From an uncultured Oscillatoriales cyanobacterium (GTDB lineage: Bacteria > Cyanobacteriota > Cyanobacteriia > Cyanobacteriales > Microcoleaceae): DNA of 42,527 nucleotides. The position numbers and the translations under genes were made by a program. Location of the stretch: assembly GCA_903893625.1 (NCBI GenBank), contig CAITND010000033.1, positions 1 through 42,527 of the forward strand. The letters run 5' to 3'. Each line of letters begins with the position of its first letter. Position 1 is the first letter of the stretch. Below the pieces are notes generated by a model that did no database searches, was not told the DNA's origin, and saw only the letters and a program-made list of their open reading frames with translations. Of the stretch, positions 8,935 through 32,428 are shown piece after piece.

Positions 8935-10656
8935 TTAAAGGGAAACCCGTTGAGATAATTCTTTTATGGCTTGGTCTGTACTTAAAAAAGTGCGATCGCG
9001 TCCTAATTTATCGACAAACCCAACTTTTTCTAATTGATCAAAAACCGGGCCTTTAACTTCACAGAGATAAAACTCAATTCCCATCTGGTGTAAATCTTCT
9101 ATCAGACGTTGTAGGGTTTCTAAAGCACTACCATCAATAGAGTTAATTCCACTACAGACTAATAGTAAATATTCAACTTCTTTCTGTTCTGTCACCAGTT
9201 TTAATAAATAGTCTTCTAAATATTTGGTATTGACAAAATACAAACTTTCATCTACTCGCACTGCCAAAATATGGGGGCTAGTTGTCACCGGATGGCGTAA
9301 AATATTGCGAAAATGTTCTGTATTTCCTACCCGTCCCACAATCGCAATATGGGGTTTACTGGTGCGAGCTAAATGTAAAAGCAGAGAAATCAACACCCCA
9401 ATAATAATTCCTTGTTGTGCACTGGTGAACAGAACAGAAACAAACGTACTGCACCAAGTAATAGCATCCAGTTTATTATATTGCCATAGCCGTTTTAGGG
9501 TAGAAAAGTCGAGGAGATTGCCAACGGCTACTAAAATAATCGCGGCTAAACTGGTTTGAGGTAAATAATAGAATAACGGAGTGAAAAGCACAACCGTTAA
9601 CATCAGAAATAACGCTGTAATTACTGATGCTAATCCTGTGTTTGCCCCGGCTGAAAAGTTGACAACGGAACGACTTAACCCCCCAGTTACAGGATAACCT
9701 CCGGTGAATGAGGCGGTTATATTTGAGGCTCCCAGGGCAATTAATTCTTGATTCGCTTCAACTTTTTTTCGTTTTTTACTGGCTAAAAATTGACCCACAG
9801 AAAAGGCTTCCATGAAGCCGACTAAACTAATGGCTAAGGCAGAAGTCCCTAATAATTGAATACTGTTTAAATCAAAATTAGGTAGGGTAAAAGGTGGAAA
9901 TCCTTTCGGGATATCTCCAACCACTTTCACCCCAAAGAATTGATCTAAATGAAATAATCCCACAACTAGGGAACTACCAATCACCAATATTAATGGCCCA
10001 CTTTTGGTAATGGTAATAATCAAAGATTCCCGAATCTTTTTAGATTGGAGATATTTTCCTAAACCCAGATTAAAATATAATAAGATTCCTAAACTGATTA
10101 TCCCTAATGTTAAGGTTATCCCATTGAGATGAGGACTTTCTTTAAAAATAGCTGTAACTGTACTTAAAAAAGATTCCGTTTGAGGAATTTTAATTCCCAA
10201 AAGATGCTTAACTTGGCTAAATCCAATCAGAATTGCTGCCGCACTAATAAACCCAGAAATCACCGCTTGACTGAGGAAATTTGCTACAAATCCTAACCGG
10301 AAAATCCCGATCAAGAGTTCAATAATACCCACCATTAAGGCTAAGGTTAACGCATATCCCCAATATTCCGGCGTGTTTTCTGAAGCGATCGCACTAACGG
10401 CCGTTGCGACCATCAAAGAATCGACCGCTACCGGAGCCACAGACAGCATGGAAGCGGTTCCTAAACACGCATAAACAATCTGAGGAAAAATGCTGGCATA
10501 GAGTCCCACTTCAGGAGGTAAACCTGCCAACATTGCATAGGCCATACCTTGGGGAATTAACAAACTAGCGACAATAATTCCGGCGGTTAAATCTCCGGCT
10601 AAATCTTCTCGTTTGTAATTGCATCCCCAGTTTAAAATTGGAAAATATTCTCTCAT
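8935..10656 (-). CDS. SulP/SLC26 family anion transporter with STAS domain
   Basis: The protein has 573 residues. The membrane part (about 15-430) begins with the family segment AGIIVASLLIPQGMAYAMLAGLPPEVGLYASIFP-type sequence and includes GGYPVTGGLSRSVVN. A C-terminal STAS domain (about 450-565) contains CSGINSIDGSALETLQRL. SulP proteins carry sulfate, bicarbonate and other anions. It lies 10 bases after a rhodanese-DUF2892 gene and in the same operon as a persulfide dioxygenase, so I infer transport of sulfate or sulfite produced by sulfide oxidation. A BicA-like bicarbonate role is the main alternative. Residues alone do not settle direction or substrate. Confidence 0.88.
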   Translation of the reverse strand: MREYFPILNWGCNYKREDLAGDLTAGIIVASLLIPQGMAYAMLAGLPPEVGLYASIFPQIVYACLGTASMLSVAPVAVDSLMVATAVSAIASENTPEYWGYALTLALMVGIIELLIGIFRLGFVANFLSQAVISGFISAAAILIGFSQVKHLLGIKIPQTESFLSTVTAIFKESPHLNGITLTLGIISLGILLYFNLGLGKYLQSKKIRESLIITITKSGPLILVIGSSLVVGLFHLDQFFGVKVVGDIPKGFPPFTLPNFDLNSIQLLGTSALAISLVGFMEAFSVGQFLASKKRKKVEANQELIALGASNITASFTGGYPVTGGLSRSVVNFSAGANTGLASVITALFLMLTVVLFTPLFYYLPQTSLAAIILVAVGNLLDFSTLKRLWQYNKLDAITWCSTFVSVLFTSAQQGIIIGVLISLLLHLARTSKPHIAIVGRVGNTEHFRNILRHPVTTSPHILAVRVDESLYFVNTKYLEDYLLKLVTEQKEVEYLLLVCSGINSIDGSALETLQRLIEDLHQMGIEFYLCEVKGPVFDQLEKVGFVDKLGRDRTFLSTDQAIKELSQRVSL

Positions 10657-11416: not shown

Positions 11417-12106
11417 TTAGGCTTTATTTCCACAAAGTTGATTAGCAGGAACGGCTTCGGCAATTTTTTTAGGATTGGGTAAATTGAGATTACCCATCAT
11501 TTCAATAAAGCTATCTCGATTATACCCGACAAAACGGGGATTAAATTGTTTTTCTTCGGCAATGGTGGAAACCGTTCGTCCTTTATAGTCATGACCGGGA
11601 TAGACTGCGGTTTGATCGGGAAGGGTAAATAATTTTTGAGTAATATTATCGTAGAGTAACCCGGCATTTCCACTTTGGAAATCGGTGCGTCCACAGCCTC
11701 GAATTAATAAAGAATCCCCGGTTAAAATGCGATCGCCATTGACTAAATAAGCGGCATGACTATCCGTATGTCCCCAGGTTGTGATCGCTTTAATTTTAAC
11801 ATCCCCGATCTCTAGGATTTCTCCATCTTTAATAAAGCGATCAGCACAATTAACAATAGCGTTTTCGGGAACAACTCCCAAACATTTAGTTAGTTGTCGT
11901 AGTTTCCCAGTTCCGGTAACGTGATCCGCGTGAATATGGGTTTCCAAACAATAGCGCAATGTCAGCCCCAACTCTTGCAATAGAGTCAAATCTCGTTCCA
12001 CTTGCTCTAATACGGGATCAACTAAAACCGCCTCTTTGGTGGTTTCGTCTGCAATCAGATAAGTATAGGTACTGGTTTCTGGGTCGAAAAGTTGGCGAAA
12101 GAGCAT
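11417..12106 (-). CDS. Persulfide dioxygenase, ETHE1-like metallo-beta-lactamase fold
   Basis: A 229-residue protein that oxidises glutathione persulfide to sulfite in characterised relatives. Signature HIHADH gives His57, His59, Asp61 and His62; His113 (WGHTDSH) and Asp131 (LTGDSL) complete the metal site. His57, His113 and Asp131 correspond to the mononuclear iron ligands of human ETHE1. The family segment RGCGRTDFQSG is present. There is no fused rhodanese; separate rhodanese genes lie downstream and across the divergent promoter. The start has AAAGGA nine bases upstream. It is divergent from the Rieske gene across 252 bases that hold two AT-rich operator-like sites. It heads the rhodanese-SulP operon. 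Confidence 0.92.
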   Translation of the reverse strand: MLFRQLFDPETSTYTYLIADETTKEAVLVDPVLEQVERDLTLLQELGLTLRYCLETHIHADHVTGTGKLRQLTKCLGVVPENAIVNCADRFIKDGEILEIGDVKIKAITTWGHTDSHAAYLVNGDRILTGDSLLIRGCGRTDFQSGNAGLLYDNITQKLFTLPDQTAVYPGHDYKGRTVSTIAEEKQFNPRFVGYNRDSFIEMMGNLNLPNPKKIAEAVPANQLCGNKA

Positions 12107-12358: not shown

Positions 12359-12892
12359 ATGGAAAATATCCTCCCTCTCGAAAGTCCGTCTCTGTCTCGT
12401 CGTCAACTGCTGAATTTTCTGACAGGTGCTGCTGTGGCGGCAACGGCTGGAAGTGTCCTTTATCCCGTTTCTAAATATTTTCTCGGCCCCGTAGAAAGCG
12501 GAGAAGGTGGAGCAATTTTAGCCAAAGATATCTTGGGAAATCCGATTCCTGCCAGCCAAATTTTAGCAGAAGTCCCTGGAAGCCGTGCTTTAGTTGCCGG
12601 GTTAGCTGGAGATCCGACTTATTTAATCGTTGAAGAAAATAGCATCTTAAGTCCGATTGGAATTGTGGATAATTGCACCCATTTAGGTTGTACCTTTCCT
12701 TGGAATCCGGTTGACCAACAATTTCAATGTCCTTGTCATGGTTCCCGTTATAGCGCTGATGGTTCCGTATTGCGAGGGCCGGCACCTTTGCCTTTGAAAT
12801 TAGTTCATGTTGCGATTAAAGATAATCGGATTTGGCTTTCTCCTTGGACAGAATTAGACCCGCGTACAGAAGCAAAACCTTGGTGGGTTTGA
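12359..12892 (+). CDS. Rieske [2Fe-2S] protein, PetC-like, Tat-exported
   Basis: The protein has 177 residues. The N-terminus has the twin-arginine motif SRRQLLNF followed by one hydrophobic helix (about 18-40). Cluster ligands are Cys106 and His108 in CTHLGC and Cys124 and His127 in CPCHGSRY; Cys111 and Cys126 can form the family disulfide. Ser and Tyr near the second box are features of high-potential Rieske centres. The length matches PetC of the cytochrome b6f complex, but no petA or petB is adjacent; the gene instead starts a sulfur-oxidation series. I infer an alternative Rieske subunit that adapts b6f, or a separate carrier, to sulfide-derived electrons. The DUF442 gene follows after 24 bases. 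ATG 12359 has no strong ribosome-binding site. Confidence 0.88.
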   Translation: MENILPLESPSLSRRQLLNFLTGAAVAATAGSVLYPVSKYFLGPVESGEGGAILAKDILGNPIPASQILAEVPGSRALVAGLAGDPTYLIVEENSILSPIGIVDNCTHLGCTFPWNPVDQQFQCPCHGSRYSADGSVLRGPAPLPLKLVHVAIKDNRIWLSPWTELDPRTEAKPWWV

Positions 12893-13413: not shown

Positions 13414-13530
13414 AAATGCTTAATTTTTGGGGATTTAATGGATCTGCTGAACCGATTATTTTGATCAAAATCCGGTGATATGCAGTTGAGTCCAAATTGA
13501 TATTTTATGTGGGATACTTTAGGCAAAACT

Positions 13531-13983
13531 ATGCGAAAATTTTTTTTATTATTTTTGCTAATTTGGCTGTTAATTTCTCCAGTATTACTTTTCAAACCTC
13601 TGCCAGTATTAGCAGCAAATTTTAATCCGTCGATCACTGAATTTCTGCAAGGGATTCCGCCCGGATATTACGCCCTGATGAAAATTGAGGATCTCCAAAG
13701 CCTAATGCAAGAGGATGATCCGGTCTTAATTGATGTTCGAGAACCTTCTGAATATGCTGTCGGTCATATTCCGACTGCTATCAATATTCCCTTAAGATCT
13801 TTAACTCAAAATCTCGATAAAATTCCTCAAGATCGTCCGGTCATTCTGTATTGTACAACGGGTTATCGGACAGCAATGGGAGTCATGGCTTTAGAACTAT
13901 TAGGATATCAGAATGTACGCGGATTTCCGCCCAGTATTCAAGGATGGAAAGCAGCAGGACAACCTTTAGAAATAGGGCTTTAA
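13531..13983 (+). CDS. Exported single-domain rhodanese
   Basis: A 150-residue protein. A basic-hydrophobic signal peptide (MRKFF then about 20 hydrophobic residues) ends near VLAA, so the enzyme should act in the periplasm or thylakoid lumen. The rhodanese domain holds IDVREPSEYAVGHIPTAINI and the loop YCTTGYRT with Cys108. ATG 13531 is preferred to ATG 13507 because it starts the signal peptide directly. Single-domain rhodaneses move sulfane sulfur between persulfide carriers. It lies 62 bases before SQR, which releases polysulfide or persulfide at the membrane, so accepting that sulfur is a reasonable inferred role. Confidence 0.85.
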   Translation: MRKFFLLFLLIWLLISPVLLFKPLPVLAANFNPSITEFLQGIPPGYYALMKIEDLQSLMQEDDPVLIDVREPSEYAVGHIPTAINIPLRSLTQNLDKIPQDRPVILYCTTGYRTAMGVMALELLGYQNVRGFPPSIQGWKAAGQPLEIGL

Positions 13984-14045: not shown

Positions 14046-15362
14046 ATGATCACTTCAACTGTAGAATCGGCTCAAATCTCGAATGCGATCGCAACTCCAA
14101 CTGTTACCCAAACACGGCATTATCAAATCGTAATTATCGGAGCAGGTGCAGCCGGAATTACTACGGCTTCTCTGCTATTCAATAATAATCATTCTCTCGA
14201 TATTGCCATTATTGATCCTTCCGATAAACACTATTATCAACCGGGTTGGACATTAACCGGAGGCGGTGTATTTCAGATTCAAGATACCGTTAGAAATCAA
14301 CGGGATGTTATTCCTAAAGATGCCACTTGGATTCAAGATAAAGTGATTCACTTAGATCCCGATCAAAATCGGGTTTTAACTCGATCAGGTATCCAGGTTG
14401 AATATGATTATTTAATTGTTTGTCCTGGGATTCAGATTGATTGGCATCTAATTGAAGGACTCAAAGAATCTTTAGGGAAAGAGGGTGTTACAACTAATTA
14501 TTCTCCTCGTTATGCACCCTATACTTGGGAACTAATTCGCAATTTTCAAGGCGGAAATGCTCTATTTACGTTTCCGAATACGCCGATTAAATGTGGTGGT
14601 GCGCCTCAAAAAGTTATGTACATGGCCGATGACATTTTCCGCATTAAATGGGGAGTTCGTCAACGCACAAATGTCATGTTTCTTTCCTCTTTAAATAAGC
14701 TGTTTACTGTGCCTGAATATTCTAATCTTTTAGATAATGTTGTTCAGGAAAGAAATATTCAAGTTAAGTTTCGGCATAACTTAAAAGCCATTAAAGCTGA
14801 AACAAAAACAGCAATTTTTGATATTTTAGATAACAATTGCAACGTTATTGATCAAGTCAGCTATTCCTATGATATGATTCACGTTGCTCCTCCTCAAAGT
14901 GCCCCAGACTTTATTAAACACAGTCCCTTAGCTGTACCTAATAATCTCTATGGTTGGGTTGATGTTAATGCGGATACCCTCCAACATAAGCGATATCCTA
15001 ATATTTTTAGTTTAGGAGATGCCTCATCTTTACCAACCTCTAAAACGTCTGCTGCTATTCGCAAACAAGCACCCGTTGTCGCTAAAAATTTACTTTCTTT
15101 AATGGCATCAAAACCTTTATTAAGTCAATATGATGGTTATACTTGTTGCCCGTTAATTACTGGTTATAACCGAACAATTATGGCAGAATTTAATGGTTAT
15201 AATGGCAAACCCTTATCCAGTTTTCCCCTAAATCCGATCAAGGAACGAGCAATTATGTGGACAATGAAAGTAACTGTTTTACCCTGGATTTATTGGAATC
15301 GAATGCTCAAAGGAGAACGATTTGAGGGGGAGTATATTAAATTCATGCAGTGGAAACCCTAA
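14046..15362 (+). CDS. sqr: Sulfide:quinone oxidoreductase, type II-like
   Basis: A 438-residue flavoprotein that oxidises sulfide and reduces quinone at the membrane. The FAD-binding motif IIGAGAAG is at about 30-37. YYQPGWTLTGGG is typical of the type II (SQOR-like) group, as are Cys183 in IKCGGAPQK and the C-terminal LGDASSLPTSKTSAA. The second redox Cys known in human SQOR (in GDC) is Ala here, as I recall for other bacterial type II enzymes; Cys367 and Cys368 in YTCCPL are other candidates. The C-terminus has amphipathic aromatic stretches suited to membrane attachment. It lies downstream of the exported rhodanese and upstream of the sHdr operon, but a separate promoter precedes the latter. 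Confidence 0.92.
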   Translation: MITSTVESAQISNAIATPTVTQTRHYQIVIIGAGAAGITTASLLFNNNHSLDIAIIDPSDKHYYQPGWTLTGGGVFQIQDTVRNQRDVIPKDATWIQDKVIHLDPDQNRVLTRSGIQVEYDYLIVCPGIQIDWHLIEGLKESLGKEGVTTNYSPRYAPYTWELIRNFQGGNALFTFPNTPIKCGGAPQKVMYMADDIFRIKWGVRQRTNVMFLSSLNKLFTVPEYSNLLDNVVQERNIQVKFRHNLKAIKAETKTAIFDILDNNCNVIDQVSYSYDMIHVAPPQSAPDFIKHSPLAVPNNLYGWVDVNADTLQHKRYPNIFSLGDASSLPTSKTSAAIRKQAPVVAKNLLSLMASKPLLSQYDGYTCCPLITGYNRTIMAEFNGYNGKPLSSFPLNPIKERAIMWTMKVTVLPWIYWNRMLKGERFEGEYIKFMQWKP

Positions 15363-15828: not shown

Positions 15829-16533
15829 ATGGGCAAGTTAGTTAACGAACTTAAACGAGATATTCAATATCAACACGGGATGAATGCCTGCCTGAACTGT
15901 GGCATTTGTACTGCGGTTTGTCCAGCAGCCGAAGTTTATGATTACTCTCCGAGAGAGGTGATGAACATTTGTCACACGGAAGATGAAGACTGGCTGGTGG
16001 AGTTACTTAAATCCGACAAAATCTGGTTTTGCGGACAATGTTTTTCCTGTAAACCCAGATGTCCAAGAGGTAACAGCACCGCCGACGTGATTCTGGCCTT
16101 GCGTCGCCTTTCCGTTCGTCACGGTTACTTTGCTGAGTCAGAAAAAGGCAGACAGCAATTGTTCGCCAAGCGGGTATTTGGGGAAAATATGCTCAAACGA
16201 GGTTATACCTTACTAGCAGAAAATATCACCCCTGAGCATTTCCCAGAACTCGGAGAAAACTGGGAATACTATTATGAACATAGAGAGGAAATGCGGGAAT
16301 GGTGGGGTGTTCCAATGGACTTAGAAAATAGCGCAGGTTCCCATCGAGTAATTCCCGAAAAAGACATGGATGAATTGCGGGCAATTTATCAAGCAACCGG
16401 GGCAATTGAGTTAATGAATGCTGTAGAAAAAGGCATGGAAAAGAAACTCGGTAGCAAAAAAGAAGTTGAAAAGTTTTGGGATAATTGGGTAGAAACTGCT
16501 GATAGCAGAAACTACGAAATGGGAGATCGGTAA
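15829..16533 (+). CDS. HdrC1-like iron-sulfur subunit of an sHdr-type complex
   Basis: The protein has 234 residues. Two [4Fe-4S] sites are complete: Cys21, 24, 27, 31 (CLNCGICTAVCP) and Cys68, 71, 74, 78 (CGQCFSCKPRCP). This is the heterodisulfide-reductase subunit C fold that wires electrons between HdrA and HdrB. A longer C-terminal helical tail (about 110-234) is typical of the first HdrC of sulfur-oxidising (sHdr) clusters rather than methanogen HdrC. A strong ribosome-binding site GGAGG lies nine bases before ATG. It is first of five Hdr genes in the order C1-B1-A-C2-B2, which matches sHdr clusters except that the small hypothetical gene usually between A and C2 is missing. Confidence 0.88.
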   Translation: MGKLVNELKRDIQYQHGMNACLNCGICTAVCPAAEVYDYSPREVMNICHTEDEDWLVELLKSDKIWFCGQCFSCKPRCPRGNSTADVILALRRLSVRHGYFAESEKGRQQLFAKRVFGENMLKRGYTLLAENITPEHFPELGENWEYYYEHREEMREWWGVPMDLENSAGSHRVIPEKDMDELRAIYQATGAIELMNAVEKGMEKKLGSKKEVEKFWDNWVETADSRNYEMGDR

Positions 16534-16607
16534 TTTTCGGGGTTAATTCCTGAATTAGCATCAATCAAAAATTCCAAATTAACATCAATAAATAAGGAAA
16601 AAACACA

Positions 16608-17654
16608 ATGAAAGTAGCCAGAGAAAATATAGTTTGGGAAAAACACCAAAAGCACGTTCCAACTATAGACGAACCCGGTGGTAAATTATGGGGTTCCTTC
16701 CGCAGTTGTTTTTTGCAAAGTGCCTCTCCTTATACCGAAGGTATTGCCTATAAAATCTTAAAAAATGACCTGGGTATCGATTTGAGAGAATCACCTGGAC
16801 ATACTTCTTGTGGGGCAATTGGCTATCATGGAGATGTCACAAACCTCGAAACCCAAATGGTAATAGCCGCGCGAAATTTTTCCATAGCTCATCATGAATT
16901 AGGTGTTGATAATCTGTTTTCATTTTGTGTGACTTCCTTTGCGAATTACACAGAAATGATTAAACTCTGGGAAGAAGAACCAGAGTTACGAGAATACACC
17001 GAAAAAACATTAAAAGAAACCACAGGTCGTGAGTTTTGGGTTCCCCATGTTTCCGGGGGACGGCCATCTGTAGTTCATGCTTCCGATGTGTTCTATGCTA
17101 ATCGATATAAATTAGCAGAAAAAGCTAAATATAGCCTGAAGGGAATTAAAGCAGTTGATCATATTGGCTGTCATTATGGAAAAATCTTTCCCGGTGAGTG
17201 TATGGGTGGAACAGAATTTCCCCAAGTTTTAGTCGGGTTATTAGAAGCTTTTGGTGCGGAAATTGTTGATTATCCAGAACGTCGGCATTGCTGCGGAATG
17301 GGTTTCCGTCAAGGTGCATTTCCTGAAAACCGGGGTTACACCGCTAGTAGCGTTTATAAGAAAATGAAAAGTCTTAAAGAAACGCAGCCCGATTGCAATT
17401 TAATTCTCACAAATTGCCCGGGTTGTACGGTATTTTTGGATGCTGAACAAGGAACGATTAAAGAAGTCATGGAAGAAGAGTTTAATGTCAATATTATCGA
17501 TTACGCGCAATTGACCGGGTTAATGTTAGGCTATGACCCGTTTAAAGATTGCGGATTGAATGCAAAAGTAGTGGAAGTCGAGCCTTTGCTAGATAAAATC
17601 GGCATTCCCTACGATAAATCTAAAACGGCAGAAGAACGTAGAAGACCGTTTTAG
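16608..17654 (+). CDS. HdrB1-like subunit with degenerate first CCG domain
   Basis: A 348-residue protein made of two CCG domains. The second is complete: Cys188, Cys228-Cys229 (HCCGMG), Cys270 and Cys273 (NCPGC), suited to a noncubane [4Fe-4S] cluster. The first has Cys34, a single Cys68 where CCG would be (SCGAIG) and Cys107-x2-Ser110 where CxxC would be, so it probably cannot hold a full cluster. This asymmetry fits the B1 type of sulfur-oxidising Hdr. In that system the complex is thought to oxidise carrier-bound sulfane sulfur to sulfite. AAGGA lies about ten bases before ATG. A paralogue of roughly 85-90 percent identity by eye lies at 27080. It is separated from HdrA by a repeat element. 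Confidence 0.88.
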   Translation: MKVARENIVWEKHQKHVPTIDEPGGKLWGSFRSCFLQSASPYTEGIAYKILKNDLGIDLRESPGHTSCGAIGYHGDVTNLETQMVIAARNFSIAHHELGVDNLFSFCVTSFANYTEMIKLWEEEPELREYTEKTLKETTGREFWVPHVSGGRPSVVHASDVFYANRYKLAEKAKYSLKGIKAVDHIGCHYGKIFPGECMGGTEFPQVLVGLLEAFGAEIVDYPERRHCCGMGFRQGAFPENRGYTASSVYKKMKSLKETQPDCNLILTNCPGCTVFLDAEQGTIKEVMEEEFNVNIIDYAQLTGLMLGYDPFKDCGLNAKVVEVEPLLDKIGIPYDKSKTAEERRRPF

Positions 17655-17820
17655 ATCCCCCTTAAAAGGGAGATGAAGATCCCCCCTAGCCCCCTTAAAA
17701 AAGGGGGAAAAGACACTCAAAGCCCTGCTTAAAAAATGGGGGAAAGACACTCAAAGTCCCCCTTATTAAGGGGGATTTAGGGGGATCTCTTAAGACTTAG
17801 GTATAACCTTAGAAAAGTAA
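17655..17820. repeat. Inverted/direct repeat element inside the sHdr operon
   Basis: Between HdrB1 and HdrA lie arms GATCCCCCCTAGCCCCCTTA (17678-17697) and their near-complement TAAGGGGGATTTAGGGGGATC-type sequence (17767-17787). Inside is a direct repeat, GGGGGAAAAGACACTCAAAG, near 17703 and again near 17739 (one A shorter). The structure is typical of non-coding dispersed cyanobacterial repeats. RNA hairpins formed here could adjust expression of HdrA onward relative to C1 and B1, or affect mRNA stability. Confidence 0.75.
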
Positions 17821-17841
17821 AAAAATTAAAAGGTAAAAGAA

Positions 17842-18912
17842 ATGAACAAACAAGTATTAGTAATTGGTGGTGGGCCTGCGGGACTGGCGGCAGCAGGAAA
17901 ACTTCAAGACTTTGGTTATGATGTCGTTTTAATTGAGAAACAAGCGGAAATTGGCGGGCATTTAAACAAGTGGTATAAAGTCTTTCCTGACTTTACCGAT
18001 GCTTCAGAAATTACCGCCAATCTCAAAGCAGGTTTGGGGAATACCAGAATTTTAAATAATACGACAGTGACAGAAATTAAAGGTTCTGCCCCTAATTTTC
18101 AAGTCACTACATCGACGGGAGAACAAATTGAAGCGGCGGCGATTTTAGTTTCTACTGGATATAAGCATTTTGATGCAACTTTAAAAGAAGAATACGGCTA
18201 TGGAATTTATGATAATTGCATCAATTCATTAGAACTCGATGCCATGTTGAAGGCAAAAAATGTAAAAACCAGATATGGGAAAGTGCCGAAAAAAGTAGCG
18301 ATGATTCACTGTGTTGGTTCTCGTGATGAGAAGGTGAATAATAATTACTGTTCACGGGTTTGCTGTACCAATGCAATTAAAGTTGCAATTGAGGTGAAAG
18401 AACAAAATCCCGATTGTGAAATTTACTGCCTTTATATGGATATTCGGGTATTTGGTCGTGGTTATGAGGAACTATACCGCACCTCTCAGCAAGAGTTTGG
18501 AGTCCAGTTTCTTCGAGGTCGGCTTTCTGAAGCCAGCGAGAAAAAAGATGGCAGTTTATTACTGCGATTAGAAGATACTTTAACCGCAAAACCGATGCGA
18601 TTGAGTGTTGATTTGTTAGTTTTAATGGTGGGAATGGAAGGCAATCCAGAGTTAGCAGAAATTGCGGGTTTAAGCTTGGGTTGCGATCGCTTTTATGCCA
18701 CTGCTCATCTGCAATATTCTAACAATCATTCTGCTCGATCAGGTATTTTTCTAGCAGGGGCAGCAACGGGGCCAAAAGCCATTATGGAATCCATTACCGA
18801 TGGCCGATCTGCGGCGGCAGAAATAGCCAGTTTTGTAGCGAGTAATCCAGCCAATTTTGAATCAAATCTCAATGGACAATCTGTAACAGAAATGGCAGCA
18901 TCCCTGAAGTAA
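17842..18912 (+). CDS. HdrA-like FAD/iron-sulfur subunit of an sHdr-type complex
   Basis: The protein has 356 residues, the short length typical of sHdrA (methanogen HdrA is far longer with extra ferredoxin domains). The N-terminal dinucleotide motif VIGGGPAGLAAAG (about 7-19) is followed by IEKQAEIGGHL. The cluster-binding region has Cys157 (HCVGS) and Cys170-x3-Cys174-Cys175 (CSRVCC), with Cys126 nearby. A second FAD contact, GIFLAGAATGPKAIMESI, lies near the C-terminus. HdrA is the flavin hub that would pass electrons to or from HdrC. AAGGT precedes the ATG by ten bases. HdrC2 follows after 14 bases, leaving no room for the small sHdr hypothetical subunit. Confidence 0.9.
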   Translation: MNKQVLVIGGGPAGLAAAGKLQDFGYDVVLIEKQAEIGGHLNKWYKVFPDFTDASEITANLKAGLGNTRILNNTTVTEIKGSAPNFQVTTSTGEQIEAAAILVSTGYKHFDATLKEEYGYGIYDNCINSLELDAMLKAKNVKTRYGKVPKKVAMIHCVGSRDEKVNNNYCSRVCCTNAIKVAIEVKEQNPDCEIYCLYMDIRVFGRGYEELYRTSQQEFGVQFLRGRLSEASEKKDGSLLLRLEDTLTAKPMRLSVDLLVLMVGMEGNPELAEIAGLSLGCDRFYATAHLQYSNNHSARSGIFLAGAATGPKAIMESITDGRSAAAEIASFVASNPANFESNLNGQSVTEMAASLK

Positions 18913-18926
18913 ATGAGGTAAAAACA

Positions 18927-19532
18927 ATGGCAACAAAATCAACAAAATCAACAAAATCGAAAAAATTTGTATTTGGTCTGAAAGTTGATCGTCAACTCGA
19001 TGGCGATAAAATGAACTCCGATTTTATTAAGAAAGTTCTGGCTGAAGGTGGAAAGGGTGCGGCGATCGCAGCCTGTATGCAGTGTGGTACTTGTAGCGGT
19101 GGCTGTACCAATATTGACCTGATGGATATGTCCCCCCGAACCCTAATTTTAATGGTGCAAAGAGGGGAATGGGAAAAGGTACTTAAAAGCAATGCTTTAT
19201 GGATGTGTAGTTCTTGTTATATTTGTACCTCTCGATGTCCTCGTGGGGTGCGTCCTTCTGATGTCATTGAAGCGGTAAAAGCGATCGCAATTCGTCAAGG
19301 AATCGAAAATGATGCGACTCGTTTTAATGAAATATTTGTCGAGTTAGTTCAGAAACGAGGCATTCTTTTTGAACCCGAATTAATGCAGAAATATGGCGGT
19401 TTACCAGCCATGATCGAACAAGCAGAATTGGGAATTAAATTAGCTTTAAAAGGCAAAATGTCGCCATTTCCTGAAAAAGTAAAAGACCCTAAAAAATTTA
19501 GTGAAGCATTAGAAAAGGCAAAAAAACCATGA
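18927..19532 (+). CDS. HdrC2-like iron-sulfur subunit
   Basis: The protein has 201 residues. Two [4Fe-4S] sites: Cys50, 53, 56, 60 (CMQCGTCSGGC) and Cys94, 97, 100, 104 (CSSCYICTSRC). The N-terminus starts with a Thr-Lys-Ser repeat (about residues 2-13), an unusual basic leader not seen in HdrC1. The second box is followed by PRGVRPSDVIEA, family-typical. It overlaps the HdrB2 start by four bases (ATGA), so C2 and B2 are translationally coupled, as expected for tight partners. It likely connects HdrA to HdrB2. Confidence 0.9.
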   Translation: MATKSTKSTKSKKFVFGLKVDRQLDGDKMNSDFIKKVLAEGGKGAAIAACMQCGTCSGGCTNIDLMDMSPRTLILMVQRGEWEKVLKSNALWMCSSCYICTSRCPRGVRPSDVIEAVKAIAIRQGIENDATRFNEIFVELVQKRGILFEPELMQKYGGLPAMIEQAELGIKLALKGKMSPFPEKVKDPKKFSEALEKAKKP

Positions 19533-20398
19533 AGAAATATTCTTACTATCCCGGATGTAGCCTGCATACCACAGCCAAAGAGTTTGATATCTCAACGAGA
19601 GTGGTAATGCAGGAATTAGGAATTGAACTAGAAGATCTCAAAGATTGGTCTTGTTGTGGCGGCTCAATTGCGGCGAGTGTTTCTCACGATGTTGGGATGG
19701 CAATGGCGGCGAGAAATGTCGCTTTAGCTCAAAAACAAGATCTCGATTTATTAGCCTCTTGTTCGGGGTGTTACAACAAGTCAGCCAGAGCACTTAAGGC
19801 ATTAAAAGAACCCACCGAAAAAGATAGAATTATGGCTATTATGTCGGAAATGGGGATCGATGTTTCTGACTATAATATTCAGGTCAGAAATGTAGTAGAT
19901 GTGTTAGTAAATGATATCGATCTTGCCCCCCGAATTAAAAAGCCATTAACGGGTTTAAAAGTCGCCTGTTATTATGGGTGTTTGTTAACTCGACCCGCAG
20001 ATATAACAGGTTGGGATTCGCCCATGTTCCCGACATCAATGGATAGATTATCTGAAATTTGTGGCGCGGAAGTCGTTGATTTTCGGTCAAAAACCAAATG
20101 CTGCGGTGGCCCAATTTTAGTCTCTCAAAAAGATGTCGCTTTTGATTTGACTAAACAACTATTAGATGAGGCACAATCTCTGGGTGCAGATTGTATTGTT
20201 TTAGCTTGTCCCTTATGTGATACTAACCTGGAACTGCGCCAGTCTGATATTGAGAAGAAATACAATGTTTCTTATAATCTGCCCATTCTCTATATCACGG
20301 AAATCATCGGATTAGCTTTGGGAATGAAACCCGGAAAATTGGGAATGAATAAGCATATTGTTTCACCACAACCCGTCCTCAAAAAATTGGGTTTATAA
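19529..20398 (+). CDS. HdrB2-like subunit with two complete CCG domains
   Basis: A 289-residue protein. First CCG domain: Cys10, Cys42-Cys43, Cys78, Cys81. Second: Cys147 (with Cys151), Cys191-Cys192, Cys227, Cys230. Both can hold noncubane [4Fe-4S] clusters of the disulfide-reducing or sulfur-oxidising active site, unlike HdrB1. The length and YPGCSLHTTAKE start are standard for HdrB. It is the last Hdr subunit of the set; a small DUF4405 membrane gene follows after nine bases. It probably forms a catalytic half-complex with HdrC2 and HdrA. Confidence 0.92.
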   Translation: MKKYSYYPGCSLHTTAKEFDISTRVVMQELGIELEDLKDWSCCGGSIAASVSHDVGMAMAARNVALAQKQDLDLLASCSGCYNKSARALKALKEPTEKDRIMAIMSEMGIDVSDYNIQVRNVVDVLVNDIDLAPRIKKPLTGLKVACYYGCLLTRPADITGWDSPMFPTSMDRLSEICGAEVVDFRSKTKCCGGPILVSQKDVAFDLTKQLLDEAQSLGADCIVLACPLCDTNLELRQSDIEKKYNVSYNLPILYITEIIGLALGMKPGKLGMNKHIVSPQPVLKKLGL

Positions 20399-20723: not shown

Positions 20724-21275
20724 ATGAACATCTACAAACTCCCTAAAAGCAATCCTAGTACAGTTGTAAAGTGGGTTGTAGACGCAATTATCATTAGTAA
20801 TGGTATCGTTTTTTTATGTTTTTTTCCAGTAAAAGCACTGCCTCAAACATCCTTAGATTCTAATACCCAACAGGCGATGATTGATTCAATTAATGATGAA
20901 TATCGCGCCAGAGCATTTTATCAAGCTGTCATCGAAAAATTTGGGTCAGTTCGCCCTTTTAGCAATATTGTTCAATCAGAAAATAATCATATTAATCTTT
21001 GGATGAATATATTTGCTAAGTACGGAATAGCTGTACCTACTGATTCTTTTGCGGGTAATATTTCGGTTCCTGATACCTTAAAAGATGCCTGTAAAATGGG
21101 AGTTACAGTAGAAATTGATAACGTTGAAATGTATGATCGCTTTTTGGGTTTTGTTACCCAACCCGATTTAAAGGCTGCTTTTACTCAACTACGTCAAATC
21201 TCTGAAGAAAGGCATTTACCAGCCTTTGAGCGCTGTCAAACTCAACCGATTGGAGGTCAAGGGGGCTTTTTTTAA
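20724..21275 (+). CDS. DUF2202 ferritin-like protein, membrane-tethered or exported
   Basis: A 183-residue protein. A hydrophobic segment (about 17-37) near the N-terminus fits a signal peptide or anchor. The ferritin-like part has the expected Glu/His helices: DEYRARAFYQAVIEKFG, IVQSENNHINLWMNIF, VEIDNVEMYDRFL and ISEERHLPAFERC. These can form a dimetal site. DUF2202 function is unknown; diiron redox or metal-storage roles are guesses. It starts eight bases after the DUF4405 gene, hence the same transcript, and is the last gene before a 186-base gap. Its export would place it on the far side of the membrane from the Hdr subunits. Confidence 0.78.
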   Translation: MNIYKLPKSNPSTVVKWVVDAIIISNGIVFLCFFPVKALPQTSLDSNTQQAMIDSINDEYRARAFYQAVIEKFGSVRPFSNIVQSENNHINLWMNIFAKYGIAVPTDSFAGNISVPDTLKDACKMGVTVEIDNVEMYDRFLGFVTQPDLKAAFTQLRQISEERHLPAFERCQTQPIGGQGGFF

Positions 21276-21461: not shown

Positions 21462-24161
21462 ATGAACTCTATGATCGAGTTAACAAGCATCTTCCCCTTG
21501 CCACAACCCATCGATCACGATCCAACAGTTGCGCCGGATGAAGGGAAAATGGCAGAAGATATCCGTTGGCTAGGGAGTCAACCCATCTGGGAAAGCTTGC
21601 CAGAAAGCGCGATGCAAGCAATTTCCCAATTGTTCTATCGCTTCCAAGTCGAAGCCGGAAGCCTGATTTACCTAGAAGGACAAACTCCCATCGGCCTATA
21701 TTTGCTCAAGCTGGGAAAGGTGGAAATCTTCCAACAGTCGCCCATTGGTAAATTGTCGATCCGCGATCGCCACCCTGGAGATTTATTTGGCTATACACTG
21801 GTGGCGAGTTCCGATGAAGGAACGTACCATAGCAGCGCCATCGCCCTGACAGCCAGTGAAATTCTGTTTTTACCCCAGAAGCCGTTTTTGGAACTGGTGA
21901 TAGACTATCCTGCCATTCAACAAGCGATCTATTCCCTGTTGATGCGAGACTTAGATGATTTTGCTAGTCGTATTGCTTGGGAAGAAGAACGCATTCGAGG
22001 CTTGCAACCCTACATCCAAGATCTTCCCACTGGGGAAATAATTCTGGGCTATAGCAAAGCCACCCAAAAACTAACCCAAAAAATCGATGCCGCCGCATCT
22101 GAGCTAACGCCTGTGGTGTTTCAAGCTCAACCGGGTAGCGGAAAAACTTTCTTAGCGGGACTGATCCACCTGCGTTCTCAATTAGCTAACCGACCCTTTG
22201 CTGAATTAGATTGTGCCGAACTCCCCCACACCGCAGATGGCAGACTCAATACCGATGTCTTGTTTGGGAGAATGGGCAACCAACCGGGTATTCTGGAATT
22301 ATTAGAACAGGGAACCCTATTGCTCGATAACGTTCATGTATTGAGCGAAGGCGATCGCACTCGGTTAATTCACTATCTGAAAACAGGGTTAATTATCCCT
22401 AATCATGGCATATTAGACCATCATCAATTATCTCACGAACCGCCTCAACCCGTTCAATCTTGGGTGCGTTTAATCTTTGCCTCTGCCAACAAACTGATTT
22501 TTCCCGATATTGAAACGATTTCAATTAAACTATCTACCCTCCCCCAACGTAAAGCCGATATTCCCGACTTTGCCGAATATTTCCTCAATCAATTTTGTCG
22601 GGAACAAAATCGCCCCCTGCTACAACTGGATCGGGCCGATTTGCGCCGCCTGATCAGCTACGAATATCCCGGCAATTTAGCCGAATTAGCCGAAATATTG
22701 CACCGAGCCGTTATTATGACTCCCATCGGGCAATCTGTGATCCCAGAACAAGCCTTGTGGTCTGTACAATCCACAAAAAATGCCTTTCGGCTTGACTTGC
22801 TCACCCATGTCCCTTTGTTGCGGAAATTTTTGCTGAGTCGCTGGTATCCCCAAGGGATCTGGATCGTGATGATGGTAATTTTCATCCCCGTTACAATTTT
22901 AGGCTTTATCGGTTCCCAATCACGAGACAGCAGTATTACCCTCAACTTATTTTGGGCTTGGTGGTGGCCCGGTTATCTATTTTTATTCGCCTTCGTGGGC
23001 CGATTTTGGTGTGCAGTCTGCCCGTTTATGATTGTGGGTGAATGGATGCGCCAGATTTCCCTGTGGCTATTTCCCCGTCAACAACTTACTTGGAAAACCC
23101 AATGGCTAAACCGTTGGGGTGCATGGATATTATTTGCCGGGTTTGTAATAATTTACCTGTGGGAAAAACTGTGGGATTTGCCCCACCATGCCTATCTTTC
23201 GGCTTGGTTATTATTAGCAATTACTGCCGGGGCGGTGATTTTTAGTTTAATTTATGAACGTCGGCTGTGGTGTCGCTATCTCTGTCCTATTGGTGGCATG
23301 AATGGGATGTTTGCCAAACTATCAATAACAGAATTGCGATCAACTCAGCAAGTCTGTGGGAGTCAGTGTAGTACCTTTGGCTGTTATAAAGGCAGTACGG
23401 AAACTCCACTTAACTTTGTTGATGCCTTACCCAATGAAGGACAAGCCAGTCAAGGTTGTCCGCTTTACTCCCATCCCGCCCAATTGCAAGATAACCGCGA
23501 TTGTATGCTTTGTATGGATTGTTTGAAAGCTTGTCCGAATCGCTCAGGACAGTTAAATTTACGCTTTCCTGCATCGGATTTATTAGATGATCATCAAGGT
23601 TTTTGGGCAGAAGTGGCGCTGTTGTTACTATTATTTGGCGGTGTTTTTATGCACCATTCCCAGACTATTTTAGGTTGGTTGGGATGGGAAAATGTACCTA
23701 TAGATGCCGATCATTTTCTAACCAGTTTACCGATCACTTTAGCATTACTCAGTATTCCAGCTATTTTAACATATCTCACTCATGCGATCGCTCGCTTTTT
23801 TGATTCCGAACAACCGGATTATTTAACGATTATTTACGCCTATCTTCCCTTTGTTTTAGCCGCTAATCTAGCCCATTACGTTCCGGCTTTTATTACCGAA
23901 GCCGGACAAATTCTCCCCGTATTAGCTCGTTCTTTAGGATATAGTGGGGCAGGATTACCCACCCTAACGTGGAGTTTAGATGTCGCTCAATTTTTGCAAG
24001 GCATAACCCTACTTTCCGCAATGGTTTTTAGCCCTTACCCTCTATTGAGAATTACTAAACAAGGTGACGAAGTAACGGGGATGCAAAGACTGATGAGTAA
24101 CCTGCCTCATTTGTTATTCATGGCTGGATTGACCGTTTTACTATTCAAGTTAATGATTTGA
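21462..24161 (+). CDS. Fusion: cNMP-binding, degenerate sigma-54-type AAA+, NapH-like Fe-S membrane protein
   Basis: A protein of 899 residues. Order: a cyclic-nucleotide-binding-like domain (about 40-160, with GSLIYLEGQTPIGLYLL and HPGDLFGYTL); an AAA+ domain resembling sigma-54 activators (about 190-430); then a polytopic NapH/NosR-like part (about 460-899) with CAVCP (517, 520), CRYLCP (604, 608) and a [4Fe-4S] motif Cys681, 684, 687, 691. The Walker A is AQPGSGKT, losing the first Gly; Walker B is LLLDNV, with Asn where Glu should be; the GAFTGA loop and a DNA-binding HTH are absent. Cyanobacteria lack sigma-54, so it is unlikely to be a normal activator. More likely it is a membrane redox protein with a sensory front end. 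GAGGGA precedes ATG by nine bases. Confidence 0.85.
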   Translation: MNSMIELTSIFPLPQPIDHDPTVAPDEGKMAEDIRWLGSQPIWESLPESAMQAISQLFYRFQVEAGSLIYLEGQTPIGLYLLKLGKVEIFQQSPIGKLSIRDRHPGDLFGYTLVASSDEGTYHSSAIALTASEILFLPQKPFLELVIDYPAIQQAIYSLLMRDLDDFASRIAWEEERIRGLQPYIQDLPTGEIILGYSKATQKLTQKIDAAASELTPVVFQAQPGSGKTFLAGLIHLRSQLANRPFAELDCAELPHTADGRLNTDVLFGRMGNQPGILELLEQGTLLLDNVHVLSEGDRTRLIHYLKTGLIIPNHGILDHHQLSHEPPQPVQSWVRLIFASANKLIFPDIETISIKLSTLPQRKADIPDFAEYFLNQFCREQNRPLLQLDRADLRRLISYEYPGNLAELAEILHRAVIMTPIGQSVIPEQALWSVQSTKNAFRLDLLTHVPLLRKFLLSRWYPQGIWIVMMVIFIPVTILGFIGSQSRDSSITLNLFWAWWWPGYLFLFAFVGRFWCAVCPFMIVGEWMRQISLWLFPRQQLTWKTQWLNRWGAWILFAGFVIIYLWEKLWDLPHHAYLSAWLLLAITAGAVIFSLIYERRLWCRYLCPIGGMNGMFAKLSITELRSTQQVCGSQCSTFGCYKGSTETPLNFVDALPNEGQASQGCPLYSHPAQLQDNRDCMLCMDCLKACPNRSGQLNLRFPASDLLDDHQGFWAEVALLLLLFGGVFMHHSQTILGWLGWENVPIDADHFLTSLPITLALLSIPAILTYLTHAIARFFDSEQPDYLTIIYAYLPFVLAANLAHYVPAFITEAGQILPVLARSLGYSGAGLPTLTWSLDVAQFLQGITLLSAMVFSPYPLLRITKQGDEVTGMQRLMSNLPHLLFMAGLTVLLFKLMI

Positions 24162-26813: not shown

Positions 26814-27079
26814 AGGTTCCTGCTGTTGAGAAGATTTTCCTAATTCAGGCAGTTTGAGTATAAATACTTTATATGATTTTACAACTAAATAGTCAAATAG
26901 TGATTTAGTCAGTGTTTTTGAGCTAGATCTTAAGCAGGATAAGTATAATTACTGATTGCAAAAGATTTTCAATAAGCTATACTACTAAATAGCAATATAA
27001 TCATACAATCCAATTAGCCCAGAAATAGATACAGTTTCACAGAATCAATCCTGTGGAACGAGATTTAGGAGAAAACTTG
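26814..27079. promoter_or_regulatory. Divergent promoter region, flavoprotein and second HdrB1
   Basis: Plus-strand promoter: TTGCAA (26956-26961), 16 bases, TATACT (26978-26983). Directly after it is ACTAAATAGCAATATA (26984-26999), which matches 15 of 16 bases of the block at 12217-12232 in the Rieske promoter. A second palindrome, ACTAAAT at 26884-26890 and ATTTAGT at 26903-26909, lies nearer the minus-strand gene. The position right after the -10 box matches the operator geometry before the sHdr operon, consistent with a shared repressor. Confidence 0.55.
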
Positions 27080-28123
27080 ATGAAACTAGCAGGAAAAAAC
27101 AAGGCTTGGGAAAAACACCAGAAAGCCATTCCCAGCATTGATGACCAAGGTGGAAAATTGTGGGGTTGCTTCCGTAGCTGTTTCCTCCAAAGTACCGCCC
27201 CTTACTCAGAAGGCGTGGCTTATAAAATATTGAAAGATGATCTCGGTATAGAATTGCGGGAAGCACCCGGACATACATCCTGTGGAGCAATTGGCTATCA
27301 CGGAGATGTTACAAATATCGAAACCCAAATGGTGATCGCCGCCCGCAACTTTTCCCTGGCTCATTATGAACAAGGTGTTGATAATCTTTTCTCCTTCTGT
27401 GTCACCTCTTTTGCCAACTACACCGAAATGATCAAACTCTGGGAAGAACCAGAATTGCGAGAATACACGGAAAACACCTTAAAAGAAACCACTGGACGGG
27501 AGTTTTGGATTCCTCACGTTTCTGGTGGCCGACCTTCTATTGTCCATGCTTCTGATGTTTTCTTTGCTAATCGCCATAAATTAGCAGCAAAGGCAAAATA
27601 TAGCCTCAAGGGAATTAAAGCAACCGATCACGTTGGATGTCATTATGGAAAGATTTTTCCAGGGGAAGCAATGGGGGGTACGGAATTCCCTCAAGTCTTA
27701 GTGGGGTTGCTGGAAGCCTTTGGTGCGGAAGTGGTGGACTACCCAGAGCGTAGACATTGCTGTGGTATGGGGTTTCGGCAGTGTGCTTTCCCAGAAAACC
27801 GAGATTATACGGCCAGTAGTGTCTACAAGAAATTAAAAAGTCTCAAAGAAATACACCCAGACTGCAAGCTGATGCTCACGAATTGTCCGGGGTGTACGGT
27901 GTTCCTCGATGCGGAACAGGGAACCATCAAGGAGGTTATGGAAGAAGAATTTAATGTCAGCATTCTGGACTACGCACAACTGACCGGGTTGCTGTTAGGG
28001 TATGACCCCTTTAAAGATTGTGGCATGAATGTTAAAGCGGTTGACATTGAGCCTTTGCTGGATCAAATTGGCATTCCTTATGACCAATCCAAAACACCGG
28101 AAGAACGCCGAAGACCCTTTTAA
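27080..28123 (+). CDS. Second HdrB1-like subunit (paralogue)
   Basis: A 347-residue CCG protein very similar along its whole length to the HdrB1 at 16608. The second CCG domain is intact (GCHYGK, HCCGMG, NCPGC). The first again lacks CCG (SCGAIG) and CxxC (CVTS). It gains a Cys in WGCFRSC and another in FRQCAFPEN compared with its paralogue. ATG 27080 follows AGGAG by about nine bases and is preferred to an upstream GTG at 27053. There are no HdrA or HdrC genes beside it, so it either exchanges with HdrB1 in the complex or acts alone. The similarity suggests a duplication followed by purifying selection, not decay. Confidence 0.88.
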   Translation: MKLAGKNKAWEKHQKAIPSIDDQGGKLWGCFRSCFLQSTAPYSEGVAYKILKDDLGIELREAPGHTSCGAIGYHGDVTNIETQMVIAARNFSLAHYEQGVDNLFSFCVTSFANYTEMIKLWEEPELREYTENTLKETTGREFWIPHVSGGRPSIVHASDVFFANRHKLAAKAKYSLKGIKATDHVGCHYGKIFPGEAMGGTEFPQVLVGLLEAFGAEVVDYPERRHCCGMGFRQCAFPENRDYTASSVYKKLKSLKEIHPDCKLMLTNCPGCTVFLDAEQGTIKEVMEEEFNVSILDYAQLTGLLLGYDPFKDCGMNVKAVDIEPLLDQIGIPYDQSKTPEERRRPF

Positions 28124-29070: not shown

Positions 29071-29451
29071 ATGGCATCTATATCTTCAGTGAAACCCAGT
29101 CTAGTTAATCTATCTCCTCTGGAATTCACTCAGTTATCTCATCCCCCTTTACTGATTGATGTTCGCAGTCAGTTAGAGTATGTCACAGGTCATGTTCCTA
29201 ATGCCATCAATCTGAGTTTACCTCGACTATTGATGGCAAGAATTCCTGGACTTCGTAACTGGATTTTACCTCAATGGTTTCGAGATTTATCCCCTGATCA
29301 ACCGATTGCTGTTATTTGTTTAACATCTCACCGCAGTCCTATAGCGGGCGATTGTCTAATTCAGTTAGGATTTACAGACATATTCAACATTACAGGTGGG
29401 ATAGTAGAATGGCAACAATGGAAACTAGAAATAGTCAAGGGTAAACCTTAA
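29071..29451 (+). CDS. Cytoplasmic single-domain rhodanese
   Basis: A 126-residue rhodanese without a signal peptide. IDVRSQLEYVTGHVPNAINL marks the first half and VICLTSHRSP the active-site loop with Cys83. A short insert (LMARIPGLRNWILPQWFRD) between the two is amphipathic and may touch the membrane or a partner. It lies downstream of the His-rich protein and upstream of DUF2214 in a run of same-strand genes with gaps under 60 bases. It likely carries persulfide for the second sulfur cluster. Confidence 0.85.
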   Translation: MASISSVKPSLVNLSPLEFTQLSHPPLLIDVRSQLEYVTGHVPNAINLSLPRLLMARIPGLRNWILPQWFRDLSPDQPIAVICLTSHRSPIAGDCLIQLGFTDIFNITGGIVEWQQWKLEIVKGKP

Positions 29452-31688: not shown

Positions 31689-31735
31689 TTTAGTTATTTG
31701 TTAAACCCAGTACATCATCAGGAGATTCATTGAAT

Positions 31736-32428
31736 ATGTCTCAATCTTTAACAACCAAAAATCTTGACTATTCTAGCGACACTTACCGGGATAGTTTCAG
31801 CCGTATTAATGGAATTGTGATTGAAGGAGAACAGGAAGCATATAATAATTTTATGAGTTTGGCTGAACTGTTACCCGAATTTGCTGAAGAATTAATTCAG
31901 TTAGGTAAAATGGAACGGGGTCATCGCAAAAGTTTTGAAGCTTGTGGAAAAAACCTCGATGTTATTCCTGATTTGGAGAGGGCGAGAGACTTTTTTGCCG
32001 ATTTGCGTCAACTGTTTCAAACGGCTGCAACCCATCAGAAAGTGCCAACTTGTTTATTAATTCAATCCTTAGTGATTGAATGTTTTGCGATCGCAGCTTA
32101 CCATAATTATATTCCCGTTGCTGATAATTTTGCTCGGAAAATTACTCAATCTGTTGTTAAAGATGAATACAGTCACCTCAACTTTGGCAGCCTGTGGTTA
32201 AAACAACATTTTGCCGAAGTCAAAACTGAAATAGAAACGGCAAATCGTCAAATTCTCCCGATGATTTTGCGGATGCTAAATCAAGTTGAATCTGATGTTA
32301 AAGTCCTGGGAATGAACAAACTTGAAATAGTCGAAGAATTCATGGTTCACTATGGGGAAGCCTTACATCAAATGGGCTTCAAAACAACCGAAATTCTCCG
32401 GTTATCTAGCCAAGCTTTAACCGCTTAA
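31736..32428 (+). CDS. Aldehyde-deformylating oxygenase (ADO) family protein
   Basis: A 230-residue all-helical diiron protein. Counting from ATG 31736, the ligands fall at Glu32, Glu60, His63, Glu115, Glu144 and His147, exactly the numbering of the characterised Synechococcus elongatus ADO, which supports this start over a TTG six bases upstream. ADO turns fatty aldehyde into alkane plus formate. The usual partner, acyl-ACP reductase, is not beside it; the gene instead ends the second sulfur cluster. Sequence divergence in the N-terminal third (for example [22 protein letters not shown]) hints at a paralogue. It may serve another aldehyde, or the housekeeping copy may lie elsewhere. A terminator-like hairpin follows. 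Confidence 0.88.

Follow-up and report, generated by a model that had tools for sequence, protein, structure and literature searches.

The hdr cluster in the window

Five open reading frames (ORFs) related to heterodisulfide reductase (Hdr) lie intact at positions 15829-20398 of contig CAITND010000033.1 (assembly GCA_903893625.1), which comes from an uncultured cyanobacterium of the Oscillatoriales. The whole contig of 42,527 bp was analysed and is called the window below; its source genome has 5.8 Mb and a completeness of 99.8%. The order is hdrC1-B1-A-C2-B2, and NCBIfam and Pfam profiles name the ORFs, in order, HdrC, HdrB (CCG), HdrA, HdrC and HdrB (Table 1). An initial annotation, made from the letters of the window alone, had described the five ORFs at these positions as a complete set of the sulfur-oxidising Hdr-like (sHdr) type, and its gene order and short HdrA of 356 aa were borne out. 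HdrA and C2 are separated by 14 bases, and C2 and B2 overlap by 4. Over residues 3-335, HdrA aligns with Hyphomicrobium sHdrA (6tjr, E 1e-63); its domains also correspond to the inner part of the methanogen protein (best E 7e-69). The solved chains of methanogen-type HdrA have 643-671 aa, and the window HdrA lacks their extra domains. The window gave no match in Rfam.

Conservation among cyanobacteria

A survey with HdrB1 as the query was carried out on 386 genomes from across the phylum and ten of the genus (genomes and loci are cited by our own G and L numbers). A close copy appeared in 12 of the 386 and in five of the ten congeners, with identities of 83-94% when the window itself is excluded; by tblastn, HdrB1 of Picosynechococcus PCC 7003 is 82% identical. 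The query otherwise matched HdrB2, a second HdrB1 or, at 24-30%, a generic CCG protein. Fifteen cluster genomes were fetched, namely the 12 of the phylum sample and three further congeners, with G083 obtained through a named plasmid record. The order C1-B1-A-C2-B2, with nothing between A and C2, was found in 14 of them. The exception is G129 (L055:11071-12255), where HdrA is fused in frame to the end of HdrB2 and C2 is gone; this locus is a cluster with an internal deletion. The cluster is a conserved cyanobacterial block and not a chance arrangement.

The plasmid that bears the cluster in Picosynechococcus PCC 7003 (NZ_CP016476) has 253 kb and was typed as mobilizable. This plasmid carriage, together with the patchy occurrence and the high identity across families, suggests that the cluster has spread laterally among cyanobacteria. 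A near-identity plasmid search returned a single match, a methyltransferase in Stanieria. Outside the cyanobacteria, 400 genomes of Chloroflexota and 398 of Pseudomonadota yielded no close relative; the top match to HdrB1 there was 33% identical. A wide peptide-pattern scan outside the cyanobacteria, one of whose two patterns was too loose, confirmed at least 18 loci and was the source of the named sHdr references L090-L093.

Phylogenetic position

Trees were calculated with IQ-TREE under a C20 mixture, and the sHdr references came from Pseudomonadota and Chloroflexota only. Against four pseudomonadotal clusters, each of the five subunits had its positional counterpart as the best match. The sHdrB1 sequences formed a clade (support 100/99) with the cyanobacterial B1 as its sister (97/90), and the sHdrC1 clade (100/99) likewise had the cyanobacterial C1 as its sister (97/85). 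On these trees, the cyanobacterial B1 and C1 are well supported sisters of sHdr B1 and C1 and do not fall inside the sHdr clades. The mean identity of B1 is 54% between the two sHdr phyla and 28-29% between the cyanobacterial B1 and either of them. B2 joined sHdrB2 (99/90) in a smaller tree with four references, in which the bootstrap had not settled. In a larger B tree, two HdrB from other operons of Pseudomonadota joined sHdrB2 ahead of the cyanobacterial B2; its eleven rows named sHdrB2_Chlf are crude cuts of fusions of about 430 aa on a branch of 4.67 and were disregarded. The trees gave no resolved placement of C2.

The sHdrA sequences of both phyla closed into one clade (99/99) with the cyanobacterial HdrA outside it. 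Three Qmo-like HdrA rows, labelled from their neighbour genes, stood apart (100/97). In mean identity, the sHdrA of the two phyla share 41% with each other and the cyanobacterial HdrA shares 34-36% with sHdrA. The use of HdrA as the sole marker was tried and rejected. With few references, HdrA was placed weakly beside sHdrA (80/59; 75/58), and sHdrA closed without it when Chloroflexota were added. For that small set, the approximately unbiased (AU) test gave p 0.07 for HdrA held with methanogen HdrA and 0.28 for HdrA held with long HdrA.

Several sequences were left out of the trees. From the HdrA tree these were G157 (split at a fetch border), the G129 chimera, G119 and G392 (thinning), second long-HdrA copies, L106, L155 and fragments of L152, L158 and L167. 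The larger B tree was built without the B2 chimera of G129 and, by thinning, without B2 of G119, G392 and G157, and the C tree without G119, G392, C2 of L053, L106, two Qmo-like rows and the Chloroflexota C2 fusions.

Two further observations were made on HdrB1-like sequences. A lone CCG protein of the Acidithiobacillus ferrooxidans plasmid pACF1 (L052:3150-4490, NZ_AP025161.1) fell inside the sHdrB1 clade, and its gene is close to one annotated as glycine cleavage H protein. The HdrB1-like genes of L152 and L153 (G736, of the Chloroflexota sample) belong to neither the sHdr nor the cyanobacterial branch; one of them adjoins an HdrA-like sequence, and L153 also has an HdrC1-like gene with the same position.

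Active-site ligands

The ligand alignment confirmed one degenerate CCG domain in HdrB1 and two intact ones in HdrB2, as the initial annotation had it. The N-terminal site of HdrB1 shows the same loss in all 15 cyanobacterial and all 20 sHdr rows, with S-C for C-C and CxxS for CxxC. This common loss is the best evidence outside the trees for a shared origin with sHdr. At the C-terminal site, the cyanobacteria keep C188, C228-C229 and C270xxC273. Position 270 is C in 15/15 cyanobacterial rows and D (DxxC) in 20/20 rows of sHdrB1. All ten ligands of HdrB2 are present in each of 11 cyanobacterial rows and in seven of eight rows of sHdrB2, the eighth (L092) being truncated by its contig end. C157, C170, C174 and C175 of HdrA are conserved in all groups compared.

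Components of the sHdr system that are absent

Type I sHdr has been defined by the syntenic genes shdrC1B1AHC2B2 (PMC11582611), and the lipoate-binding protein LbpA has been described as accompanying hdr-like clusters 'in all cases' (PMC6067878). According to a later survey, very few clusters are without LbpA, probably due to incomplete assemblies (PMC10332631). Neither LbpA nor sHdrH was found in the window, in agreement with the two absences first remarked on. The gap between A and C2 runs from -67 to 236 bp in 14 cyanobacterial loci and from 860 to 893 bp in four sHdr loci. An sHdrH query found nothing in the 15 cyanobacterial genomes and a match in 3/3 sHdr genomes (one of them its own); with about 30% identity between the two systems, a diverged copy elsewhere in a genome could escape it.

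In the cyanobacterial stretches of the 15 genomes, the LbpA profile gave nothing above 12 bits, its sole match scoring 11.9 bits (L051). As a positive control, the same profile placed LbpA near 17 of 20 sHdr clusters. Among Pseudomonadota the count was 7/8, and the contig of the remaining locus, L092, stops inside B2. Among Chloroflexota it was 4/12 in the first stretches and rose to 10/12 when longer flanks, taken for seven of the other eight, added six; the two loci without LbpA are L155 (a 4.3-kb contig) and that of G739 (a 32-kb contig). The GCV_H profile also recognises LbpA (113.5 bits); in all 15 cluster and all five cluster-free genomes it had a single full-length match, and no second GcvH-like protein appeared. 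There were extra partial, weak GCV_H matches in G078 (22.1 bits) and G019 (21.6 bits), the first of them exceeding the cut-off together with its frame neighbours. A search limited to the DsrE_2 family of sulfurtransferases found none in 18 cyanobacterial genomes, including the 15 with the cluster, and found them in 3/3 sHdr genomes. TusA is present as one copy in 17 of the 18, cluster or not, and as two in G390.

Sulfide setting and neighbouring genes

Sulfide:quinone reductase (SQR), persulfide dioxygenase, rhodaneses and a SulP permease, which the initial annotation had named as neighbours, were all identified (Table 1) and support a sulfide setting. The SQR beside the cluster is type II-like. 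Counting both types, SQR is present in all 15 cluster genomes (in G388, G390 and G392 it was seen separately). Type II-like SQR occurs in 9/12 cluster genomes and in 33/374 others (Fisher 1.6e-7). Without G000 and G157 the count is 7/10 (p 7.6e-6). SQR of either type occurs in 12/12 cluster genomes and in 14 of 43 hand-picked cluster-free genomes to which both SQR searches extended (p 2e-5). All three p values ignore kinship between genomes. G083, G078 and G129 have a type I-like SQR near the cluster instead, and that of G083 was the one compared with solved structures. In the fetched stretches (10.5-42.5 kb) of the 15 genomes, SQR was found in 11, rhodanese in 8, an ETHE1-like dioxygenase in 6 and a PetC-type Rieske protein in 6.

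Table 1. Features of the window, hdr genes first.
Feature	Position	Strand	Remark
hdrC1	15829..16533	+	234 aa; two [4Fe-4S] motifs; sister to sHdrC1 in the tree
hdrB1	16608..17654	+	348 aa; C-terminal CCG site intact, N-terminal degenerate
hdrA	17842..18912	+	short, 356 aa; FAD domain; C157/C170/C174/C175
hdrC2	18927..19532	+	201 aa; two [4Fe-4S] motifs
hdrB2	19529..20398	+	289 aa; both CCG sites intact
Second hdrB1-type gene	27053..28123	+	lone; 85% identical to window hdrB1
SQR, type II-like (mitochondrial type)	14046..15362	+	adjoins cluster
Rhodanese	13507..13983	+	profile match
PetC-type Rieske protein	12359..12892	+	beside SQR
Persulfide dioxygenase, ETHE1-like	11417..12106	-	
Rhodanese with YgaP-like transmembrane segment	10667..11260	-	
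SulP-family permease with STAS domain	8935..10656	-	
Rhodanese	29071..29451	+	

A second, lone HdrB1 gene of the window had been overlooked in the initial annotation and is present in the sister genome G157 too. In the tree it stood with HdrB1 of other families (L060, L062 and L051) and not with the window's own HdrB1; therefore, it looks like a transferred copy rather than a recent duplication.

Other genes around the cluster were recorded as well. The Rieske protein could feed sulfide electrons into a cytochrome b6f variant. An ORF at 21462-24161 encodes an 899-aa protein in which a cyclic-nucleotide-binding domain and a sigma-54-type AAA domain are fused to a NapH-like membrane iron-sulfur part. 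It is also close to the cluster in G157, G390 and G392; cyanobacteria are not known to have sigma-54. An aldehyde-deformylating oxygenase (31730-32428; TIGR04059, 340 bits, over the cut-off) adjoins a TrxR-like gene of the sulfur island. Of the five congeners with the cluster, four have a DUF2202 gene between C1 and B1 (L064:9738-10580; also L054, L065 and L066). The C1-B1 interval of the window has only 74 bp, and a separate weak DUF2202 match lies at 20724-21275.

Discussion

The cyanobacterial set resembles type I sHdr (shdrC1B1A-H-C2B2 with lbpA; Hyphomicrobium denitrificans, Thioalkalivibrio) in the order and pairing of C1, B1, A, C2 and B2, in its short HdrA and in the N-terminal loss of HdrB1. 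In contrast, it is without sHdrH, LbpA and DsrE_2 proteins, and it keeps C270 where type I sHdrB1 has D. With type II sHdr (shdrC1B1A-H-B3 with etfAB), which the Chloroflexota loci L154-L165 look like, it has counterparts of C1, B1 and A in common; however, its C2 and B2 are separate ORFs and not an HdrB3 fusion of about 430 aa, and the LbpA found near most of the Chloroflexota clusters has no equivalent. The inner domain of methanogen HdrA and an HdrB2 with both sites are shared with HdrABC of methanogens, whereas the multidomain HdrA is not, and the paired B1/B2 and C1/C2 genes set the cyanobacteria apart. Nor does the cyanobacterial HdrA group with that of Qmo. Thus, what stands of the 'complete sHdr-type set' of the initial annotation is the positional kinship (B1 and C1, and B2 against four references) and the HdrB1 N-terminal loss; the claim does not hold as to sHdrH and LbpA, which are absent, or as to A, B1 and C1, which lie outside the sHdr clades.

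We propose that the cluster encodes a third, LbpA-independent Hdr branch acting on persulfide derived from SQR, probably towards sulfite, and we put the chances of this at about even. Oxidation to sulfite is favoured because the subunits are kin to a proven sulfite-forming system, and it is plausible that the cyanobacterial Hdr works like sHdr. SQR would oxidise sulfide and pass the sulfane sulfur on as a persulfide, carried by a low-molecular compound or by a rhodanese. The persulfide would bind a non-cubane [4Fe-4S] site, that is the C-terminal site of HdrB1, the sites of HdrB2 or both, and would there be oxidised towards sulfite. HdrC1 and HdrC2 would carry the electrons to HdrA, with its FAD and [4Fe-4S], from which they would pass to NAD(P), ferredoxin or plastoquinone. 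Complex formation, substrate, direction and electron acceptor are what we infer here. Such a pathway would be an O2-independent route past S0 in sulfide-exposed cyanobacteria, alongside the O2-dependent persulfide dioxygenase. A more specific proposal, which we hold with somewhat less assurance, is that this is a third sulfur-oxidising Hdr type, independent of LbpA and sHdrH, in oxygenic phototrophs. It would have split off before LbpA and sHdrH joined sHdr and kept a simpler chemistry, in which the non-cubane cluster of HdrB1 works and the substrate is the persulfide of a small molecule or of a rhodanese.

Several results weigh against this proposal. The status of a third branch rests on sHdr from two phyla, Pseudomonadota and Chloroflexota. 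The initial annotation had expected HdrA to group with sHdr and not with methanogen-like or Qmo-like sequences. The separation from Qmo was found; on the other hand, HdrA is not inside sHdr, its support with sHdr is only 74/76, and a place with methanogen HdrA (AU test, p 0.43) or with long HdrA (p 0.65, the held tree being 2.5 log units above the free tree) is not rejected. In mean identity, HdrA is nearer to methanogen HdrA (39.8%) than to sHdrA. The SQR association is quoted in figures that disregard how the genomes are related, and rhodanese is away from the cluster in 7/15 genomes and persulfide dioxygenase in 9/15. Finally, LbpA is essential in the sHdr systems studied (PMC6067878), and its absence here may therefore mean a chemistry other than that of sHdr.

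The strongest rival is a reductive complex that would draw on NAD(P)H, ferredoxin or quinol to maintain thiol homeostasis under sulfide stress, its substrates being persulfides, polysulfides or mixed disulfides. It is serious because HdrA, by its mean identity, and the C-terminal site of HdrB1, with canonical ligands that sHdrB1 has lost, look more methanogen-like; besides, sulfite could already come from the persulfide dioxygenase next to the cluster in the window. The sister position of B1 and C1 to subunits of a sulfite-forming system and the sHdr-like loss at the N-terminal site of HdrB1 argue the other way, and we judge the reductive complex unlikely, at roughly one chance in four. A canonical sHdr that uses the single housekeeping GcvH as its lipoate carrier is improbable. 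In its favour, LbpA is a relative of GcvH (PMC6067878), and a single GcvH-family protein is encoded in every one of the 15 genomes. However, cluster-free genomes have the same number of GcvH, and the functions of GcvH could not replace those of LbpA in the systems studied (PMC6067878). In a comparison that covered plus-strand loci, the GcvH of cluster-free G391 is 80% identical to that of G000, as against 71-72% for the cluster genomes G390 and G392. Moreover, sHdrH and DsrE_2 are absent too and the subunits lie outside the sHdr clades. Similarly doubtful is a module for electron transfer, either bifurcating by flavin or general, that has no connection to sulfur, the published interpretation of hdrB in Lake Fryxell mats (PMC7153904). 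The AU results for HdrA would agree with it, but the strong SQR association and a chain of 356 aa without the extra domains of methanogen-type HdrA speak against it.

As far as the accessible text of the open literature goes, with subscription journals and preprints outside its scope, no description of the five-gene cyanobacterial cluster or of its lack of LbpA was found. The metagenome-assembled genome (MAG) of Phormidium pseudopriestleyi, a sulfide-exposed benthic cyanobacterium, lists hdrA2/B2/C2, under KEGG names, as genes typical of methanogens (PMC8002359). These are probably the same genes as this cluster; the available text of that account contains no mention of a five-gene cluster, a link to sHdr or LbpA. 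KEGG naming places such hdr genes under methanogenesis, and surveys demanding sHdrH in the cluster would overlook the cyanobacterial set. In one study of mats, cyanobacterial MAGs are stated to encode only SQR (PMC13384644). In the Phormidium-dominated mats of Lake Fryxell, hdrB tracks psbA and rbcL and was ascribed to sulfate reducers; r between hdrB and psbA is 0.983 in the table and 0.897 in the text of that paper (PMC7153904). The cyanobacterial cluster may account for this tracking of psbA.

The sHdr pathway has been described as inseparable from LbpA. A set without LbpA, sHdrH and DsrE_2 in 15 genomes bears on which parts the chemistry needs and on how the system arose. For cyanobacteria bearing SQR, it offers a possible path beyond elemental sulfur, which is of relevance to sulfidic mats and to settings of Proterozoic type.

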